From contig NC_135243.1 in assembly GCF_947623445.1 (NCBI RefSeq), positions 17,678,479 to 17,742,478 of the forward strand: a stretch of 64,000 nucleotides of DNA, read 5' to 3'. The DNA is from Clavelina lepadiformis. Lineage: Eukaryota; Chordata; Ascidiacea; Aplousobranchia; Clavelinidae. Under the pieces are notes generated by a model that saw only the letters and a list, made by a program, of their open reading frames with translations, made no database searches and was not told the origin of the DNA. The position numbers and the translations under genes are program-made. The first letter of the stretch is position 1; each line of letters opens with the position of its first letter. Positions 33,241 to 46,959 of the stretch are shown piece by piece.

Positions 33241-34154
33241 AAGATCAACAGCCGCCTCAAAATTGAACTTTTTGAGCTTTCGCCGAAGCAAAATCAGCGA
33301 TAATATCTTCAAAATCAAGTTTCGGAACGAGGTCTCTTTCTATAGAAAGAATCGATAGAGCTGATAGCCGATCATCATTCATGGTAGAAGGTAAATAGGA
33401 CTTTATCATTTTGAGCTGTGAAAAACTCCTCTCAGAGCTCGCAATTGAAACATTGAAACACCAATGTTAAGATTAAAATTTCAGACACAAGCATAAATAT
33501 GGTGTCGTATCAAGTACTGTAGTTGTGATTTAGCTAGCCACTGTAAAACATCAAACGCTGTAGCATTACCATCAAACGTGGTTTCACTGCTTCGCACCAG
33601 CCTCTTAAATCTGTCAATTTCCAAAGCTAACTCCAAAAAGTTCACCTCTTCGTCATAAGTGCTTTTAAAAGCGTTGGTGAATCCATTGTGACTTTCGCTT
33701 TGCAGCAGCGCATGAGGATTCAAAAATCCAAACATATCATTCAAGTGGTGTATGCCGGTAAGCCTAGTTTCAGCTTCAAGTTTAAATCTGTCCAATGCTT
33801 GAAGCATGCATCTTCTGCGTGTTCACCAGGCACTCTATTTTTTCTGCGAACTCTTCGATCTTCAACTGGAATCTCTAGCTCTGTGCATTTTTTGATCACT
33901 GCATCCACAGAATATTTAACAAGATTAGGCTATCTCGTTCTTCCTCTAAAATCTAGAGCATCCATAATCTCATCAAAACCTACGTGAAGGGCCTTTACAG
34001 CAGCGTGACGATCTCCATCGCTTATCAATCACTTGCTTCAGCGCGATTGGCGCATGCTTTAGTTCAGAACAGAGGTGACGAACCTGCGGGCCGCCAAACA
34101 ATTTGAGGCGGGGAAGTGATCCATTTATGACTCGCAAGCCAGGCTTGAAATTCA

Positions 34155-34757
34155 GAAGCCTGGGTCGAGATTACAGAGGCCATGGTTCGTATAAATTGAA
34201 GCCTGGGTCGAGATTACAGAGGTCATGGGTTCTGTAGATTGAAGCCTGGGTCGAGATTATAGAGGCCATGGGTTCTGTAGATTGAAGCTTGGGTCGAGTT
34301 TGGAAGGGTCATGGCTCGTATAAATTGAAGCCTGGGTCGAGATTACAGAGGTCATGGGTTCTGTAGATTGAAGCCTGGGTCGAGATTATAGAGGTCATGG
34401 GTTCTGTAGATTGAAGCCTGAGTCGAGTTTGGAAGGGTCATGGCTCGTATAAATTGAAGCCTGGGTCGAGAATACAGAGGTCATGGGTTCTGTAGATTGA
34501 AGCCTGGGTCGAGATTGGAAAGGGTCATGGCTCGTATATAATGAGGCCTGGTTCGAGATTACAGAGGTCATGGCTCGTATAAATTGAAGCCTGGGTCGAG
34601 ATTACAGAAGTCATGGGTTCTGTAGATTGAAGCCTGGGTCTAGATTGGAAGGGTCATGGCTCGTATGAATCGAAGCCTGGTTTGACATTGGAAGGGTCAT
34701 GGCTCATATAAAATGAAGCCTGGGTCGACATTACAGAAGTCATGGGTTAGGCTATGT
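34155..34757 (+). repeat. 43-bp minisatellite, left array (about 14 units)
   Basis: Unit begins GAAGCCTGGGTCGAG. Two variants occur: A (ATTACAGAGGTCATGG then GTTCTGTAGATT) and B (TTTGGAAGGGTCATGG then CTCGTATAAATT). The first units repeat in A-A-B order, i.e. a 129-bp higher-order period. Divergence between units is low in the middle and higher at the right edge. The same unit forms an inverted array at 38887-39504. Confidence 0.92.
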
Positions 34758-35438
34758 AGCCTACGACTGGAAAGGTCACAGGTTTTTTTACTAAAGGTTT
34801 GATCGACAATAAAGAGGTCATGCCTAAAAGGCTGGTTTGAAATGAAATAGATCATGTTTTTTAATTAAATCCTGTATCACTAAGTTTGCGTTGTGCAGTA
34901 AATTATCATACATTTCCATATATTACGGAAATTAAGCCCCACAAATTACACACGAAGTTAAATTGAGTGCCACAGGAATGTTGAGTTATGCAAAACCACA
35001 ATACATTATGCAAGTACATGATAAAATTATTGTTGAACTACTTATTTGTGGTGTTTCTGATAAAATGCCTGCTACCAATTCCTTTTTTTCTCCTCACATG
35101 TTAATTACCCTACTGTCTTAGTTGTACTTTACAGGTATATAGTGATTTGCTTAGTAAGCTATTGAAGAACATAAAAATGGAGTGGTTTGACCATACATTA
35201 TTACTGCATGTTAGGATTTTTGATGCAGACCATTTCACGTTGCTCCTAGGATTGTGAAATCATTCACGTGACCCACGTTCAATTGGGAAGTCTCCTGACT
35301 GCACGAGTTAAAGAAAACACATTTACAGATAAACGTCTTTGTAGTTAGGAAATTGTTTAAAAGTACTTTCTTCAACACCCTCCTTTCCGCTGATATGCTT
35401 CAATTCAATAAATCATTTACAGTGAACGCTTGCTTGAC

Positions 35439-38311
35439 TTATATTTGTACCACAAACAGGTTAAGAACTGGAAAGAATTTTATTACAGTACATGAATTAA
35501 ATTGTGCAATGTTTGCATAGGAACTGTTCGTTTTCTGCCGGTTCAGCGGAGCAGGATTCGTGGATCCAGCGGCAGCATTGATCACATGCATACTAAAAGA
35601 TAAATAAGCAAAACAGTTTGATATTGCTGTAATAGAAGCAATTTCAAGTTTATAATATTTTGTCACAATGTACAAGATATGAGTTAGGGGGTTCATCTTG
35701 TATGATTGAACACTTACCATGATAGAGAGGGGCCCACAACTGTGGGTATCTTGTTTTATATTGTGGCTGTGTATTACCACTTTTGCATCTTCGTAAGATG
35801 CATTGAGTTTATGCAATTTCATGTTGTAAAACTTCTGGAAGGATCTATTTAGAATTGAAATATATCAGTACAGTATAAATACTTGTAAAGTACCGAACCC
35901 GAAATGTAAGCTCATGTGAGCCCGAGTGATAGGCGTGATAATATTACAAACATTGAAATTTATTTGTGAAAGCACAAATGTCCTTATTGACTCACTGTTG
36001 GCTACATTAAAAATCCTATATGTCCACGGTATACCACCTGCGTATTTCTTAATAGTAATAAAACTTCTTTGTCAATCACTGGCAAATTTCATGCACCGTT
36101 CCATGACAGATTACAAGCCAATGTTTTAATCACAGCTTCAGCTTACGTTAAATTAGTTGTAATGGTTGGAGCGATGGTATTTTCCCTCCCAAGTGGATCA
36201 TATATGAAAACCTCAGCGTTAGCAACATCAATTGCCTGCAAATAATGTAATGGTAGCTGCATGGTGATAGTTGTCAGGCAGATAGCTAGTGTTACGAATA
36301 ATCTTAATACATTGAATTTGAATCTCACCAAAAACACCCAGTGTGCTCCAGTATTTATAATAGTTATAACTGGTTTCATGAAACGTGCAGTACCTAAAAA
36401 CAAACTTCATAAACAACATGTCAAAGTAAAAAGGAGCAAATTATGGCTTTAACATACCCAGTCACTATTTCTGCGGGTAAATCTTCTTTTGTGAAACCAA
36501 AAAGTACCATATTGGGATGAAACAGTATTCCAATCCTCATTCTTTGAAAGAAGTTTTTAAACCACATGTGAATTCAAACGTGAAATACACACAATTTCAA
36601 AGTAAACCAATAACAACTGTATGGCGGTAGAATACCTTATATATGTTTTACAGTACAGCACATTAACTACACTAATTCAAATACAACATGTCAGTTGTGC
36701 TGCTAAAATCAAGTTCAAAGTACAGTATATTGTTTTTGCTCAATTTTACTTTATTTGTAAGCTGTGAACAGGAATATTTCCTAATGTGAAGTAGAAACAG
36801 TTATATATATAAATGAAAATATCAAAGCATACCTCAATACATAGGGCTTCTAGTGCCGCATCAATGACCTAAAGATAAAGAGATATACCTACACTTAGCC
36901 TGTTTACATACAACCTATTCCATAAAGAAAAATTATTAGATCAGCAGAAAATTTCAGCTTGCACATGTCATGGGTAGGGTTGGGTTTCTCAAAAATGCCT
37001 AAGTACTGTTCAGGTTAACATTGTAGTATAGCCCTATGCGTATAATGACTATAAGAACAAGGGCTGCTCATGCTCACAACATCATCGAGCCAATTGCTTC
37101 CTTGAAGAAGACATATAACGTCTTTTCAATTGTGTAAGTTTTGTGCAGTGTTTGGTGAAATAAATTTTCTCTGTCTCTCTATAAACTTGTGTGAGAATTT
37201 AATTCATGTTATAACATACTGTATCTGAGGATGCTGATAATTTCAGTATGCATGCATTCTGCATAATTTACTGGCTTTGTAGTGCTTCACAACTAATGTT
37301 TTAACCAAAACTTAAAATGTTTTTATTTACTTTTTCGGCCTGACTTTGCAAAGCAGTCGCTAAATATTTATCAGATGACCTTAAGCAGAAAATAGCTGCC
37401 CACCCTTGACCCAGCTATTACTATAATCTATCTGTTCAGCAGTTACAAACTGAAAAGTTATGTTTATAATACAAGATATTTAGCCCAAAACATTTATATA
37501 CCTGTTGATGTAGATGGCAGTTGTATTTCGCTGGACGATTTTATTGATCCACATTCCCCTGGCATAAAAATAGCTCTTACAGCATGACCACATAAAAACT
37601 ATCAGTACTGACCAGGCAGCTGTATATACTGCACAAGGTATAAGTGCAGTAAAATAGAAAAATATCAGCATTGGTTATATTGACATATTAGAATCATTTC
37701 CAGAGTCCGAGTTACAGTACATCCATTAAAACTGAGCAGTATTTGTTAGCCCAGATAATGAAATTTGAAAATGACTAAATGCAAAAAGCTACCAGGTCAT
37801 AATTAGTATTCATAAATCTTCATAAACAAAAATATGTTTATACATAGACTAGATACTAAGTAATTAACTTACCATTTTTTGTAACGAGGTGGTGTTTTAG
37901 AGGCCTACTCCGACCAAACACATGAAGACAAAAAGGGCAATGAAAATGACTTCGTCGAGCCTCAGTTTCACTTTTTCTGTTCAGGCATTCTTGCTTGCGG
38001 CAAGGAAGAGAAAAACCTTAACAAATACAAACATAACATTTTATAATCTAACAATGCCTAACTATACATTATCAAGATAATTAAGAAATACTTGCACACT
38101 TACCCTTTCTACCTTTTACTTCAAATTCCACGGCGTGGTTGAAATGCTTTTTTATAAAATGATCTGAAATATTCTAATTAGAAGAATTACAATTTTCAGA
38201 TATTTCTGGATTGCATAAAATACAACTTTTTCCTGAAAAGCTTTCTATTTTTTCAAAAATTTCATCTTTTCGGCCCCAAAACACCGAAGAGAAATTCTCT
38301 TTTGACTCCAT
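35439..38311 (-). CDS. Zinc-finger plus Ulp1/SENP-like (C48) protease gene of a transposable element, copy 2
   Basis: A spliced minus-strand gene between two inverted minisatellite arrays. Exon complement(38104..38311): MESKENFSSVFWGRKDE, then CILC...HFIKKHFNH, a C2H2/BED-like finger, GTAAGT donor. Exon complement(37873..38016): HCPFCLHVFGRSRPLKHH, a second finger, phase-compatible, GTAAGT donor. Around 36400-36340: VITIINTGAHWVFL, active-site His. Exon at about 36238-36150: VFIYDPLGRENT, active-site Asp. Exon ending about 35720: HNIKQDTHSCGPLSIM, the Gln and catalytic Cys, GTAAGT donor. A C-terminal exon follows. The first exon has an in-frame TAG (about 38185), so this copy may be dead or has an unrecognised splice. 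Exons between the fingers and the His block (36400-37870) were not resolved. C48 enzymes cleave SUMO-like modifiers; the role here is unknown. Confidence 0.65.
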
Positions 38312-38886
38312 CTATTTAAAATCGGATTGTATAATAATTTTGTATTTTATTAAAAATATTTGTTTATATTAAAATTTTGATCAGTATATAAAAAGCATTC
38401 ATCATTCGTACAAGAAAGGCTGATTCCGTAAATCAGTCATTTTTTCAGTATGGCCTATTACTACTAATAAAGTAGCTAACCTATCACCCAAATAATACCC
38501 GGCAACCAGGTTACGGTAGTCAATGAAAACATTATGTCAGTATGCAACTTTGGGACCACATACCAGTATGTACCGGTATCCTACTATAAGCTACAACCTA
38601 TAATATTCGTTTCAGATTGCCTAAAAAAAATTTCGCCTCATACAGGCCTAGCCTAACTTTCAATGCAATCAAAACCCATGGCTTAAAATATTTCAATAGT
38701 GAAATTTCAATATTCAATGCCTACACACTGACACAGTAATTTCTTTAACAATAATAATCAGCGTCAGCAGTCTGCCAGTCCTAAAAAAACAGCAAAAGAG
38801 CTCGACTAACCCTCCTGCTTTCTGATTCAACATATTTAACTTCGACTCCAGGTCTCAATTCTATTCGAATTCACAATTTTCTTATA

Positions 38887-39504
38887 TCGACCCAGGCTTC
38901 AATTTATACGAGCCATGACCCTTCCAAACTCGAACCAGGCTTCAATCTATAGAACTTATTACCTCTGTAATCTCGACCCAGGCTTCAATTTATACGAGCC
39001 ATGACCCTTCCAATCTCGAACCAGGCTTCAATTTAAACGACCCATGCCCCTTCCAAACTCGAACCAGGCTTCAATTCAAACGAGCCATGACCCTTCCAAA
39101 CTCGACCCATGCTTCAATCTACAAAACCCATGACCTCTATATTCTCGACCCAGGCTTCATTATTTTCGAGCCATGACCTTTCCAATCTCGACCCAGGCTT
39201 CAATCTACAGAACCCATGACCTCTGTAATCTCGACCAAGGCTTCAATTTACACGAGCCATGACCCTTCCAAACTAGAACCCAGGCTTCAATCTACAGAAC
39301 CCATGACCTCTATAATCTCGACCCAGGCTTCATTATATATGATCCATGACCTTTCCAATCTCGACCCAGGCTTCAATTTATACGAGCCATGACCCTTCCA
39401 AACTCGACCCAGGCTTCAATCTACAGAACCCATGGCCTCTATAATCTCGGCCCAGGCTTCATTATATACGAGCCATGACCTTTCCAATCTCGACCCAGGC
39501 TTCA
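38887..39504 (-). repeat. 43-bp minisatellite, right inverted array (about 14 units)
   Basis: The reverse complement of the left array: units read CGACCCAGGCTTCAAT with the alternate tails ACGAGCCATGACCCTTCC and AGAACCCATGACCTCT. With the left array it forms arms of about 600 bp around a 4.1-kb loop. Outside it, TCATTAAATAATCACTTCCCC (39645-39665) mirrors GGGGAAGTGATCCATTTATGA at 34110-34130, giving the unit true terminal inverted repeats. Confidence 0.92.
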
Positions 39505-40289
39505 TTTGTGAGGCCTGTCTTTTCATTGTGGGTTGCAATAGTGGCCTGTAGAAGATGTGACCTGTAAGTTGTGGGTTGGCTCCTATGGAACGTGACCTTA
39601 GAATAGTGGCGTCTTTTCAAATTTTCATGACCTGGGTTCGAAGTCATTAAATAATCACTTCCCCTATTGAACAATTTTGTGCGGCCCACCAAACGCCCAT
39701 ACATGCAAGGCATATATATCCGGATATAAATCTGCCGGTTAACCGGTTAAAAGAGTATCGTTGCTTATGCGTTTTACACTTTTTAATAAGTTTGAACATT
39801 CTTTGTTACGTAGAGTCTGACTCCCGCTGAGCGCAATTAAACCTTTTTTCACACTTCTATTGTCTTATAGTTATACTTTCAACTACGGTACTCGTGAAAT
39901 GCACGAGTGAAATTTACTATCACGTCACAAAGAAAGCATAATGAATGATTCTTTTAATAGAAAACTGCATTCTCATGGCAAGGGTAAAGTCTGTGAAGTG
40001 TCAGTTGAAAAGCTTTGACTACAAGTCTACAACCTAGTTTGAAGTTTGTTGATTGAATTGAGTTGTTGATTAATTAATTGAGTTAGGCTAATTGAAGTTA
40101 AGTACGTTAGGCTTAGCCTATTTCTGTTTCTGTATTAAGTTGTCAGGTCGGCGTGGTGAAAATTTGCATTTACTAATTTATTTTTTTTTAAACATTTTAA
40201 AGCCAATTTTTTACTAATTTACAGATTAAACATAATATTCATTATTCTGCAAAATTTTAACCTAATTTAACAATTTAATACAAATTTCA

Positions 40290-42084
40290 ATGTCTTCAGC
40301 AAAGACAAGAAAGATTGCAGATGAGAAAAGGGTATTTCAGGAGGAATGGACTGATATGTTTTTCTTTATCAAGAAAAAAGAAAAACCATTTTGTTTGAAG
40401 TGCAAAAGGGAATTAGCAGTCATGAAGAAAGAAAATTTAAAACGTCACTACGAGACCAACCACTCTGAGTTAAAAAAACTTGGATGGGGAACTCAGAAAA
40501 ATGAAGATAAAAGAACTCAAGAAAGATTTGCATGCTCAGCAAAGTGTCATGACTTCCTTTTGCAGCACAAATGATGCTGTGCTCACTGTAAGTAATGAAG
40601 TATCGGAAATGATCGCTAACAAGTTCAAGCCGTATGACGATGGGACAAGGGCCAAGGAAATACTTGTAAAAGCAGCTGAAAAGTTGGCTCCTAAGTCGGT
40701 TCATTTGTTCCAGAAGTTGAGTTTATCCCGGCGCACTGTTTGTGAACGCATACAAGAAATGGGACAAGATATTGAAGATAATCTCAAAAAAAGAGCTGGG
40801 AAATTCGTTAACTTCTCCTTGTGTCTCGACGAAACAACAGACATCAAGAACATTGCGCAGCTGGCAATCTTTTTTCGAGGGATAACATCAGATTTCCATA
40901 TTGAAGAGAACTTATTATCTCTCGAGTCGATACACGGAACTACTCGTGGAGAGGATCTGCTGCAGAAGCTTCTCCAAGCTTTAGGCAAGTTCAACCTGCC
41001 ATTAGATAAGCTGTGTGGTGTTGCTACTGATGGCGCACCAGCAATGGTTGGGAAACAAAGGGTTGGTATCATTGTTGAAGAAGGAAATGGGTGCAAAAGG
41101 AATTAGACATGATGGATTGGTATTTTGCCATTGCATTATTCACCAGCAAATCCTTTGTGCAAAATCGGTGAAGTTTGATCATGTGATATCGGTAGTTACG
41201 GACTGTATTAACTTCATTAAAAAAGGGATCTAAACAACCGCATATTCAAGCAAGTTCTCAAAGATTTTGATGCTGACTATGATGATCTACTTTATTACTG
41301 TACTGTTCGTTGGACAAGTTGTGGTAATATGCTCAGACGCTTTTATTCTCTTCTACCAGAAATTATTGAATTTAGAAATTTGAAGAAGTGTCCTCTCACT
41401 GAGATAGAAGATGAAAACTGGTTGTGCGATTTAGGATTTATGGTAGATTTCACGAAATATTTAAACGAATTAAATGTACAACTCCAAGGGCCAAATCAAC
41501 TGTTGCACACGATGTTTTCCAAGATCAAATCTTTCATGTCAATGCTGAGCCTTTGGGAAAATCAGTTGAAAGATAACAACTGCACACATTTTCCCACATT
41601 AAAACAACACAATCCAACTTCATGTACTCAGTATGCTTTGGAATGTTCAAGTCTTTTGGAGAGCTTTAAAGCTAGATTTCAGGATATCAAAAGCAAACAA
41701 CTGGAGCTTGATATCTTCTCTATCCCCTTTAATGTTACACCTGCTTCTGCACCCTCTGAGCTCCAACTTGAACTGATAAAACTACAGAGTGATGACGCGC
41801 TAAAAGCGATGTACCTGAACAAGCCGCTGCTTGAATTTTATCGAGTATATTTTACAAAGGAAGAGTTTCCAAACTTGAGAGCTTTCGCTCTCAAATGGTT
41901 ATCTGTTTTCGGCAGCACGTACCTATGCGAACAGTTCTTTTCTAAACTGAACATTACAAATAGTCGTTACAGGTCGAGGTTAACAGACGAAAATCTTAGT
42001 ATGCAGTTGAGAGTTGCTACATCGTCGGTTCGACCTAATATTGAACGCTTAGTCAAGAGAAAAAATTTCCAAAAATCTCACTAA
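40290..42084 (+). pseudogene. GTF2IRD2/ZBED5-like hAT transposase, frameshifted
   Basis: Starts at the ATG at 40290 (MSSAKTRKIADEKR), with a BED-type finger KPFCLKCKRELAVMKKENLK...HYETNH. After a frameshift near 40540 it reads VSNEVSEMIANKFKPYDDG, KLSLSRRTVCERI, LCLDETTDIKNIAQLAIF and LCGVATDGAPAMVG, the DDE/RNase H-fold landmarks of hAT transposases. More frame changes occur near 41090 and 41230. The C-terminal frame 41329-42084 ends with KWLSVFGSTYLCEQFFSKLN and SRYRSRLTDENL, the dimerisation domain. About three frameshifts inactivate it; otherwise it is nearly full length, which suggests moderate age. Confidence 0.85.
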
Positions 42085-42367
42085 GCAAGAAACTTTATTA
42101 AATCTTTCTTTTTATTTTTTGTTATTTTATGTTTCAATACTACATAAAATAGCTTCAACTGTATGATTCGCATGGGATTTTTATTACTTTTGTTTGTTGT
42201 TCCTAATTGTTGATAAACTATTTCTAATCGTTTATAAAAAAACTACATAGTCATATGACTTAAAAGTTGTGCGGCCCGCTTACTCAGCTGTAACTAATGA
42301 AGTGGCCCGCGACAGCGAACGGGTTCGTCACCACTGGTTTAGAAGGACATCCCATCTATGCGTAGAG

Positions 42368-45300
42368 CAGGGCCGGATTAAGGCGGGGGCTGATGGGGCT
42401 GCAGCCCCAGGTCCACACCCAAATGTAGGCCCACCACTGCACTAAGTCAATGAAACAACTAAGGTAGCCTAGGCTAATGCAAATCTCCCAGCTATTATTG
42501 AAAACACAGTCCATGCACTGTAAAACCCAACCTGGTCACTATGACGCAACAATCGCTTTTTCTCGGCTGTTAGGCAGGATTGTTAGTAGCCAAGTCAAGT
42601 CAAGTTTATTTCGCAATAACGCACATAACAATATTGCGCATGCAGGCAGTAGCGAAAGACCACTATAGGGTCATCTAAATCTAGCTCGCCTAGAGACTCT
42701 AGGCGTAGCTAGAGTAGCTGTTGCTATAGTGTAGGCTAGAGTATAGCAACATGTTGTTTTTAGTTGTTTTGTTTTTAGCTTGGCTAAATTAATTTAAAAA
42801 TAAAAATGAAGAAGTATAAAAGCGGTTGGGAAAAGGAGAAATCTAGAAGAGAAGCAGAAGCTAAATTGAAAAAAGTTGTAGCAGGTTCAAAAAAAGTGAC
42901 TGATTTTTTTGATGTTGTAAGCGAACCGAAAAGCAACATTGCAGAAACGACGCCCTGTAGGCCTAATGCAACTGCTTTGCGACCATCTACTTCGAGTGAC
43001 TGTATTGCAGAGCCACATATAAATATTGTTTCATCGGAACCAAATTTAAAAACCAAGTCATCTAATGTTGCTGAGGATGAAACACATGGGGTAAAAGAAA
43101 CTATTCAACACGACATGGATGTTGGATGCTGGGGAGGAATTTCTGACCAGCTGAGAGATTACTGCTGCCAAATAGGAAGTTTAGAATTTCAACATCTTGA
43201 TGCAGATTTTTCAACTTCAGAGACACGTATTACTGGCGATAAATTTAAACGGCGTTGTTCTAAATCGCTATTTTGGCGAGAACAATTGAACGGCGAAATA
43301 GTGAAACGCGAATGGTTGTGCTATTCGCCTTCAACCAAGAAACTTTACTGCTTTTTTTGCAAACTTTTTGCGTCTGATTCTGAGAAAATCATGCTGCAGC
43401 TGGCATCAGTTGGTTATGGCGACTGGAAACATGCACCACGCGACCTGGCCAGGCACGAATCTTCTAACAAACACTTAAGTTATCTTTCAACATATTTCTT
43501 TCGAAGAGCAAAAAAGGAAGCATTTGCAAAGATTTGGAAGAGCAAAAAGAATCTGACAGAAAATATTGGTGCAAAGTATTAGCTCGAGTTTTAAGCGTGA
43601 TAAAATTCCTATCATCCAGAGGGCTGGCCTTCCGCGGAAGTAGTGAGAGGGTTGGTTCTCCACAAAACGGTAACTTCCTTGGAATTTTGGAGTTGTTGGC
43701 AGAATACGATACTTTCCTTGCTGAGCATATTCAAAAGAGAGTGAACAAAGGCAAGGGACACGTTTCGTATTTCTCATCGACTGTATGTGAGGAATTCATT
43801 GACGCAATTGCAACAAAAGTATTACATATTATTATTTCCGAAACAAAACAAGTAAAGTATTATTCAGTGTCCGTGGACTCAACACCTGACATTGCAAATG
43901 TTAACCAGTTAACAATAATTTTTCGGGATGTTTCACCTGATGGTCCCGTGGAACGATTTGTCAAATTTATGCCCACCCGTGGACACACTGGTCGCCAATT
44001 GGCTGATATACTTTTGGAGTTTATAGAATACAATGGGATCAGTTTGAAAGATCTCCGAGGACAATCTTATGACAACGCTGCTAACATGAGCGGAAAATAT
44101 AAAGGTATGCAAGCTATAATAAAAGAACGCAACCACCAAGCAGAATATATTCCTTGCGTAGCACATTCCTTGAATCTTGTGGGAAAATGTGCTGCTGAGT
44201 GTTGCCAATCCGCGGTTCGTTTTTTCATGTTTGTTCAAGGACTCTATGTATTCTTTTCAGCTTCAACACACAGGTGGAATCTTCTTGTTGATGCACTGAA
44301 ACCACTTAAATGTCCAACAATTAAGCCTTTGTCTGATACACGTTGGGAGGCGCGATATGATGCGCTACATGCACTAAGAAAAGGTTACCAAGCGGTTCTT
44401 CAAGTCTTGACGGCAATATCTGATGACAATGATGAAACATATCAAACTAAAGAAACAGCCAGGGGTTTTGTTTCATCGATGAAAAAGCTTGAAACTGGTA
44501 TTTTAGTCGAGGTATGGTCGTGCATAATGGAACGGTTCCATAAGACGAGTCAGGCTCTGCAGGACAGCAACATGACTTTGAATAAGGCAACAAATTTGCT
44601 TCAGGGTCTACAGAACTTTATTCAACTTCTCAGACCCCAATTTCAAACATTTGAAGGAAGAGGTCAAGCATTAAGTGGCTGTCATCATTACACTGAAGAA
44701 ATTTCAAGAAAGAAAAGATGAAAAGTAGGGTTGGATAGCGAAGGTGAATCTGAAGACACATCACTTGATCCATCGAGCAGATTCAAAGTAGACTCATATC
44801 TGCCGATCATTGACCAAATTCTTTCGTCTGTGAAAACCCGACTAGAAGCTTACGACGGTCTCCAAAGAAAGTTTTCGTTTCTGATAGAATTGAAGCAAGT
44901 GCGAAATCGTTACTTCAATATTATCCAGATGATCTGGAGGAGTCATTGCCTGAGGAGATGATTCATTTTTCTACACTGATAAAACAACACCATTTCAACA
45001 GTGAATGCAAAGAAATTCAGATGTTTAAATTCATAAATGAAAATGAATTCGCGCATGCATTTCCTAATGTATCGGTTGTTTTCAAGCTTTATCTTTGTCT
45101 GATGATTTCTAATTGCTCTGGCGAGCGCTCATTTTCAGCACTAAAAAGAGTAAAAAATCATTTGCGTTCGTCTATGAGGCAGAAAAGGTTGAATTCCTTA
45201 GCTATACTCTGCATCGAAAACGACATTTTGCAAAAAATAGACACCGATGACATAATTAAGAGCTTTGCATTGTCTAAATCCAGAAAATGCGTCATTTGAA

Positions 45301-45454
45301 TGTGTGCATACAAAGTAAATATATACTTTGTTTATATATTAATATTTGTTTTTCGTTTCAATTGTGGTTAGTTTTTAGTACAACGAATAGAATAAAAAAT
45401 AGGCCTCTGACTATCATAGAGCCCCAGGCCCATAAAAAGCTTAATCCGGTCCTG
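42368..45454 (+). mobile_element. Third hAT element, complete with exact target duplication
   Basis: A 3087-bp element with ends CAGGGCCGGATTAA / TTAATCCGGTCCTG and perfect 8-bp flanks GCGTAGAG (42360-42367, 45455-45462). It inserted into the coding region of the old minus-strand hAT, 15 bp from the duplication left by the second hAT element. An isolated copy of its left end lies at 18038-18102. The left 400 bp are non-coding and contain GCCTAGAG/CTAGGC-type short palindromes. Confidence 0.95.
42806..45299 (+). pseudogene. ZMYM1-like hAT transposase, two frameshifts and one stop
   Basis: Transposase of the element above. Segment 42806-43582: basic N-terminus, KRRCSKSLFWREQLNGE, a TTF-type finger (YCFFCKLFAS...HESSNKH). 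Frame change at about 43540-43580. Segment 43534-44718: LLAEYDTFLAEHIQKR, YYSVSVDSTPDIANVNQL, GQSYDNAANMSGKYKG, PCVAHSLNLVGKCA and FFSASTHRWNLL, then TGA at 44719-44721 with the same frame continuing. A second frame change near 44940, then LMISNCSGERSFSALKRVKN, the dimerisation domain, to TGA at 45299. With only three lesions in about 830 codons and a perfect TSD, this is a recent inactivation. Confidence 0.88.
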
Positions 45455-46959
45455 GCGTAGAGGCAGCAAAAAAAACATACAATCTTTCTAAAACGGCGAA
45501 AAATTTGTCGCTTAATTGCGACGATCCGACGGCATGAGCACCTGCAAGATTCAGTGTGTGATTTCCACAGGGTGCGAATATTGCTTTTGGATTTATGTTT
45601 TTGATTTTTTGCTGAACTCCAGTATGAATTCCCGATATAGTAAATGCGTTATCGTAGTCTTGTCCCCTACACATCATCGCATCTGAGTTGTTTAGTTCAA
45701 GTTCATCTAGAATAGATTAAGAAATTTCAGCTGCCGTTTTTCCGCTCAACGGAAAGAAATTCAAAAACGATTGCTTCAATTAGGCAATACTTTTTTTGAT
45801 TGTTACATATCTGACTATAAGAGTCATTTGATCAGTATGTGATATGTCCGCAGTACTGTCGCAAATAATCGCAAAATATTTAGCTTCGCGCACCTCTTTA
45901 AGAACGATATTTTGGACTTTTTTACTGAGAAGCAAAATAAGCTCATTTTGAATAGTGGGAGAAAGATAAGTAGTTGTCATCTTCTTAGAAATACGAATAT
46001 CAGAAAGGTGTTTGCTGAGTACGGGACTATATTTTGCCAGAAGCTTCACGGTCTCAAAAAATTCCCTTGGTTGTTGGATTCAAAAACTTCACGATGTCCT
46101 CGAAAAGAGAGGTTTTGCTTACTTAGAAATAATATCACATCAACATCGCTTTCTAAAATTACTTTTCACTTTTTTCGCTCTTCATCCATATGTTTCTGCA
46201 TGTTCTTGTCAATTGTTTGTTGCAATTGTAGTCTCATTGCAAGTTCTTTCAATTTTCCATGCATTCTTGTGGATTTTGGAATTCTCATGCTCAAATATGC
46301 GTGGATTTAAATGCCAAAAATTATTGAAATATTTTGTGATAAATAAAGCATAGCCAGTAAAGTGGAACAATAACAATACAATCCCGATTCCTTTTTCGAA
46401 AATAATAACCAACTTCTCAAAATTCTGTCACCGTTTTCGAGTATTAAAAAGAACCATTCTTCGTTCAAGCTTAGTGCAATCTCCAACTTTAATTATTCTG
46501 CTGCTGGAAGCTAATGGGCCGACCTTGTTTTGATACTTTTCTGGTCCTGCTTTGACTAGCTCAACTCTCAAATGGTGATCTATAACTTTAGGCCAAGAGG
46601 CCACATCATTGGGCAAATTGTTGACTACTGCAACTGCTTCGTCGTTATTTGCACCTTCGTCTCCATCTATAACGGACAATGCATAATTGATTTCATTGGT
46701 ATTACTTTTGATAGACCCTGTTTCTTGCGTTTCTGCTGATAAGCTGATCTTTTCAGTATCCCTCTGGAGCTCAGCGTTATTGTCAGGGTTTTCATTTGAA
46801 TCGTTCTCTGGTAATGTTGAAGAAAGAGTTGAACCAGAAGAGGTCACAAATTTTAGCATAGCTCCCTTGTGCTTTTTTAATTCTGCTTCTCTTGCTTTCT
46901 TTTTCTTTTTAAAAAAAGCTCAACTCTCTTTGACACGTTTCATTTTCGAGTCTTAATTA

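Follow-up and report, generated by a model that had tools for sequence, protein, structure and literature searches.

The foldback elements FB and TU have long inverted arms of tandem repeats, a variable middle, deleted copies and target-site duplications of 7-10 bp. To our knowledge, visible transposases have long been lacking from foldback elements, and most of these elements have been assigned to the Mutator superfamily. A C48 protease domain is carried by Zisupton transposons. According to the accessible part of one source, Tetris and Galileo likewise have long inverted tandem-repeat arms, a variable middle, many deleted copies and 7-10-bp duplications, described foldbacks belong mostly to Mutator and Galileo to the P superfamily, and transposase-binding sites have been reported within the tandem repeats of the Galileo arms (PMC4079207). 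As far as the available portions of the respective sources go, KDZ transposons generate 8-bp duplications (PMC12730594) and have multi-exon genes (PMC9297572), and Rehavkus elements contain a PHD finger and a minisatellite that precedes the 3' terminal inverted repeat (PMC6446971). Here, we analyzed the window, a 64-kb stretch of contig C4 in the 209-Mb assembly (95 contigs) of the ascidian Clavelina lepadiformis, together with related copies across the whole assembly. The element in the window is probably a deleted copy of a foldback cut-and-paste DNA transposon family that is moved by its own CxC4-C48-PHD protein.

Ends, arms and insertion site of the element in the window

The two facing arrays of a 43-bp unit that a sequence-only reading had described were recovered by TRF, at a 43-bp period with 13.7 copies (score 636) and a 129-bp trimer period (score 853) in the left array, and at a 43-bp period with 14.3 copies (score 686) in the right one (Table 1). 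The arrays pair as inverted arms, the longest pair extending over 465 nt at 81% and another over 230 nt at 90%. Outside the arrays, the core GGGGAAGTGAT and its complement occur at 34110 and 39664 only, with at most one mismatch, in the 64-kb window, and comparison with other copies places the true ends of the element 5 bp beyond this core, with GAGGC starting at 34105 and TATTG ending at 39669. The left and right ends can be aligned to each other over ~45 bp. The matching termini of the sequence-only reading thus stood, but its unit of 34070..39700 had to be corrected to 34105-39669, position 34070 being the left end, CAGAGGTGACGAACC, of a hAT transposon into which the element is inserted. 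The right end of this hAT lies at 42322-42336, its duplication matches at 7/8 positions, and a hAT dimerisation domain in the ORF at 41221-42084 (9.3e-7) is part of it; the same domain was not matched in the gene pieces of the element itself. Beyond the element-bearing hAT, further hAT-like ORFs lie on both strands at 42788-46079, including one with DUF4371 (43468-44721, 2.9e-16), forming a nest of transposons.

Table 1. Positions in the window of the element, its parts, its gene remnant and the transposon around it
Feature	Position	Strand	Remarks
Whole element	34105..39669	-	gene on minus strand; GAGGC tip at the gene's 3' side, type I
Target-site duplication AACAATTT, left copy	34097..34104	.	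8 bp, exact
Target-site duplication AACAATTT, right copy	39670..39677	.	8 bp, exact
Left terminal domain	34105..34154	+	tip GAGGC, then core GGGGAAGTGAT, then stretch alignable to right terminal domain
Left array, 43-bp units in 129-bp trimers	34155..34757	+	TRF 34155-34745
Right array, 43-bp unit of left array, inverted	38887..39504	-	TRF, arm pairing
Right terminal domain	39505..39669	-	tip CAATA (read inward), core GGGGAAGTGAT
Surrounding hAT transposon	34070..42336	+	element inserted in it; duplication GTTCAGAA / GTTTAGAA
Exon 1 remnant, zinc-finger exon	38104..38311	-	stop at codon 46
Exon 2, C2H2-like finger	37873..37989	-	
Exon 3, shorter than in copy A	37502..37558	-	comparison with copy A
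Deletion junction, intron 3 to mid exon 12	37106..37127	.	exons 4-11 gone
Exon 12 (beginning of C48), retained in its 3' part only	37078..37127	-	one-base gap
Exon 13, C48	36833..36868	-	
Exon 14, C48	36458..36541	-	
Exon 15, C48	36329..36391	-	catalytic His in GAHW
Exon 16, C48	36147..36235	-	catalytic Asp in YDPLG
Exon 17, C48	35718..35844	-	catalytic Cys in KQDTHSCG
Second deletion junction	35640..35671	.	exons 18-19 gone; these encode the C48 end and the first half of the PHD-like finger
Exon 20, second half of PHD-like finger	35497..35592	-	

A query of 218 bases, made of both flanks of the element joined over a single AACAATTT, identified an empty site in a paralogous hAT at C5:3348035-3348252 (99% over 218/218 bases); among the 40 matches listed are also the right flank in the window itself and numerous incomplete hAT copies. 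Since the C5 site is uninterrupted, the whole unit, arrays included, was inserted precisely.

The terminal domains bear some resemblance to the array unit, and the inner stretch of the left domain holds a unit-like CCAGGCTT in reverse orientation. When compared with the reversed unit, the left terminal domain was equalled in 2/1000 and 14/1000 shuffles, above chance in two of four tests, and the right one weakly (49/1000 and 422/1000); comparisons with forward units yielded 55-335 of 1000 shuffles at both ends. Across these eight tests of 1000 shuffles each, the resemblance between unit and terminus appears modest. An Rfam search of 34000-39800 returned no match.

A dispersed family with two arrangements of loop and tips

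In the 209-Mb assembly, the left and the right 16-base end patterns each had 33 matches (24 exact and 9 with one mismatch), compared with a single match for the reversed control of each; some of the one-mismatch matches may be chance occurrences. Facing ends within 12 kb formed 22 pairs, every one of a left and a right end and none left-left or right-right, which leaves 11 left and 11 right matches unpaired. The 22 two-ended elements are 178-8447 bp long, and 17 of them are flanked by exact 8-bp duplications, with 7/8 bases matching at L050 and no target duplication at the remaining four (L021, L054, L060 and L058/L059). About 15 different exact duplications adjoin common ends, and the ninth base beside the duplications differs when the flanks are compared. 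Short derivatives that lack the gene and keep the arms or their remnants are also present. The family thus has fixed ends with inverted 43-bp arrays inside them, inserts precisely with an 8-bp duplication and has dispersed as one unit, as had been proposed for arms and gene together from the window alone; the pairs with unlike tips, the exact duplications and the empty site agree on this, and the genome copies speak against the independent dispersal of arrays and gene that had been named as refuting it.

The opposite view, that the arrays and the gene constitute no mobile unit and became neighbours accidentally or through segmental duplication, draws on the duplication of some loci: the same insertion site, CAATCTGC, is found for L010, L011 and L050. 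This sharing points to one insertion within a duplicated region, shrunk to 561 bp in L050, and the empty C5 site together with the many unlike duplications at common ends refutes this explanation, which we regard as wholly improbable. The shared site is present in triplicate on C1 (C1:2421622-2428507, C1:4011686-4018657 and C1:3503383-3503943), with two of the three mirrored, which points to either an extensive inverted duplication or residual haplotype sequence in the assembly.

Copies A and B, which keep most of the gene (described below), are 100% identical to L018 and L021 over ~820 bp, and B and L018 are flanked by exact duplications that differ from each other, which indicates recent movement of the family. 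Copy B additionally contains a segment of ~356 bp that is missing in copy A (L019:3352-3707); with hAT-like ends recognized by eye, it is apparently a later insertion into the element.

Nineteen elements could be oriented by the GAGGC tip, of which 14 contain gene sequence. In nine of these (type I: the window element, L009-L013, L015, L025 with only 87 bp of gene sequence, and L026), the GAGGC tip lies at the 3' side of the gene, and the number of independent type I cases is slightly lower, L010 and L011 being one insertion; in the other five (type II: L014, L018, L021, L022 and B), it lies at the 5' side. Both terminal domains of type II correspond to the left one, with the 5-bp tips as the sole difference between them, whereas the right terminal domain of type I is distinct and missing from type II. 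The tips are one GAGGC and one CAATA in 22/22 elements, even where the terminal domains are otherwise identical. Because a simple inversion would have swapped the terminal domains as well, the two arrangements likely arose by inversion combined with homogenisation between the arms. Tentatively, the family could also represent a separate, undescribed superfamily with a SWIM-like finger, CxC4, a DDE-like core of its own, C48 and PHD, in which the inverted arrays would render the loop invertible relative to unequal 5-bp tips; we think this possible rather than likely. If true, the transposase would seemingly have to distinguish its two ends by five bases.

The gene in fuller copies and its remnant in the window

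The fullest gene is found in copy A (from position 1917448 of C1, at 1.92 Mb), for which no second tip was found; most of the gene is also kept in copy B (C1:22823035-22831481). Twenty exons of copy A were assigned manually on the basis of reading frame and splice sites. All 19 introns are GT-AG and 18/19 junctions are in phase, the exception, between exons 9 and 10, being due to a missing exon that L010 retains, with a phase-2 GT donor and an in-frame join to exon 10. A further exon preceding the extra exon of L010 is kept by L014 (L014:6264-6409), there with a GC donor. Exon 7 was found in A and B only, and L014, L010 and L011 alone were found to keep the two extra exons; none of the copies found has all exons.

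The spliced protein of copy A, searched in two parts, contains zinc fingers, a SWIM-like finger, CxC4, a C48 protease and a PHD-like finger. CxC4 (PF18717, 6e-9, 36.3 bits against a cut-off of 26.9) and C48 (PF02902, 2.1e-10, 41.3 bits against a cut-off of 20.7) were identified with Pfam models, the latter bearing out the protease assignment made from the window, and the blocks of the C48 catalytic triad (His, Asp and Cys) are legible in both copy A and the window. The PHD-like finger scored below the Pfam cut-off (0.023) and matched the PHD of KDM5B (PDB 2ma5) at 9.4e-5, the C2H2 fingers had Pfam scores under the cut-off, and the SWIM-like finger was read by eye from a CxC..CxH pattern that no model matched. 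Pfam searches of single-exon ORFs yielded no clear transposase and no clear C48, the splicing of copy A being needed, and an exon-by-exon genome search with the CxC4 model gave 0 matches, which we attribute to the introns.

The copy in the window is defective and internally deleted, and its gene is a decayed remnant. The minus-strand zinc-finger exons and the GAHW, YDPLG and KQDTHSCG blocks noted from the sequence alone are there, but in a gene with a stop in exon 1, in which exons 4-11, 18 and 19 were not found; the first deletion junction removed the SWIM-like, CxC4, DGN and following exons. The sequence-only reading was likewise right that no transposase is visible in this copy, but the absence belongs to this internally deleted copy: about ten more exons, CxC4 among them, are present where the gene is fuller.

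In three protein searches, parts of the gene were confined to copies of the element and decayed relatives, so that no host parent gene was seen. The protein search in which the two extra exons were located also listed 13 matches of lesser strength at other places (E 4.8e-7 to 0.118), and seven rows from four family copies; the weaker matches look like decayed relatives, and one such relative on C2 keeps the second proposed catalytic motif (see below) and a C48 block in pieces. On C9, an array of 37-bp units in 111-bp trimers (C9:3674683-3675486, L043:2683-3486) lies beside a decayed relative with 38% identity and has a three-unit higher order as do the arrays in the window. No inverted partner was found in the surrounding 15 kb, and array arms are thus not shown for the C9 relative.

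When copy A was compared with the other copies, dN/dS was 0.24-0.32 in 10/11 comparisons, those with L014 and L018 resting on few changes; L021 had no synonymous change relative to A, and its ratio could not be computed. These values show that the gene was formerly under purifying selection and thus functional through most of the divergence.

Placement among known transposons and candidate transposase

The build is that of a foldback element, with inverted tandem-repeat arms, a variable middle and a mobile unit with a duplication. Inverted array arms, a variable middle and deleted copies are shared with FB, TU, Tetris and Galileo; in contrast to described foldbacks, the middle here contains a gene for CxC4, C48 and a PHD-like finger that is split into at least 20 exons, and the 43-bp unit is arranged in trimers. 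What is unusual is the combination of foldback arms with this gene and the two arrangements of the loop. The initial statement that the architecture could not be matched to a named superfamily needs qualifying: a name for the build exists.

Among known groups, the gene is nearest to the KDZ-associated CxC4 group, and CxC4, typed by Pfam as KDZ-transposase-associated (PF18717), points to a KDZ lineage; 8-bp duplications and many exons are further likenesses. The family differs from KDZ in its array arms and in that the KDZ core PF18758 was not matched by the gene pieces up to E = 10, and we therefore do not file the element under KDZ. We found no transposon combining Zisupton with Ulp1, or CxC4 or KDZ with Ulp1, in one open-access library of papers; a database entry for the family may exist.

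A placement in the Mutator superfamily, as a foldback near Rehavkus, fits worse than the KDZ lineage. The family has a PHD-like finger and a minisatellite, as does Rehavkus in the available part of its description (PMC6446971), and Mutator is the assignment of most foldbacks in the accessible text of PMC4079207. However, the duplications are 8 bp rather than the 9 bp of Rehavkus and Mutator-like elements, the arrays lie at both ends, C48 and CxC4 are present, and no MULE domain was matched in the gene pieces up to E = 10; we regard this placement as very unlikely.

As candidate catalytic acids, we propose, by eye, a D/D/E assignment to VGDGNWK (exon 7; A and B), PVVFISDISSQ (L014) and INTSIAEQTN (L010 and L011); none of the copies found carries all three motifs. 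The core pieces had no Pfam match to KDZ, MULE or other transposase families up to E = 10, no match to PDB structures up to E = 1, and no match to the genome's own KDZ exons in single-sequence hhalign comparisons, and the N-terminal part had only weak finger-type matches in the PDB. The CPHG..E..RD..D and AEQ.N motifs may resemble those of HMGXB3-like proteins of animals.

A young KDZ family is present at L045 (C4:17620001-17629000) and elsewhere in the genome; a 1.5-kb probe from it matched 22 times at 98-100%. Among the 20 matches listed for a 9-kb probe, 10 span all 9 kb at ~100%, and the unit is therefore longer than 9 kb.

The absence of any match to the catalytic core also bears on whether the gene mobilizes the family at all. 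An unrelated transposase, for example of hAT or KDZ, could act in trans on the ends, with the CxC4-C48-PHD gene as long-held cargo in the role of, for instance, an anti-silencing or SUMO protease gene. The 8-bp duplications would suit hAT too, and the young KDZ family would be at hand in the same genome. However, of the 31 genomic matches to the KDZ model, none is located 12 kb or less from any of the 22 elements, and the L045 family was rejected as autonomous partner since the element termini are missing there at up to two mismatches. Moreover, CxC4 is the very domain associated with KDZ transposases, and no host gene of the CxC4-C48-PHD kind was seen. Purifying selection would fit cargo as well and does not decide between the two. 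On balance, we consider mobilization by such an unrelated enzyme unlikely.

In the reading we prefer, the product of the CxC4-C48-PHD gene is the transposase of the family, with its candidate acids in DGNWK, ISDISSQ and INTSIAEQTN. It would bind the terminal domain as well as the arrays; the array units, by analogy with Galileo, would most likely serve as additional transposase-binding sites, and deleted copies such as the one in the window would be moved by it in trans. The C48 domain might cut a SUMO-like target or one in the element's own protein, and the PHD-like finger might read histones at target or donor sites.

If this reading holds, the window contains a foldback element with remnants of its own gene, of a non-Mutator lineage, in a chordate, and its family includes copies so young that they are identical over ~820 bp. 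The family makes the proposed role of the array units as transposase-binding sites testable, and opens to testing the questions of why the tips must differ and what a PHD-like finger and a protease of SUMO type may contribute to transposition.
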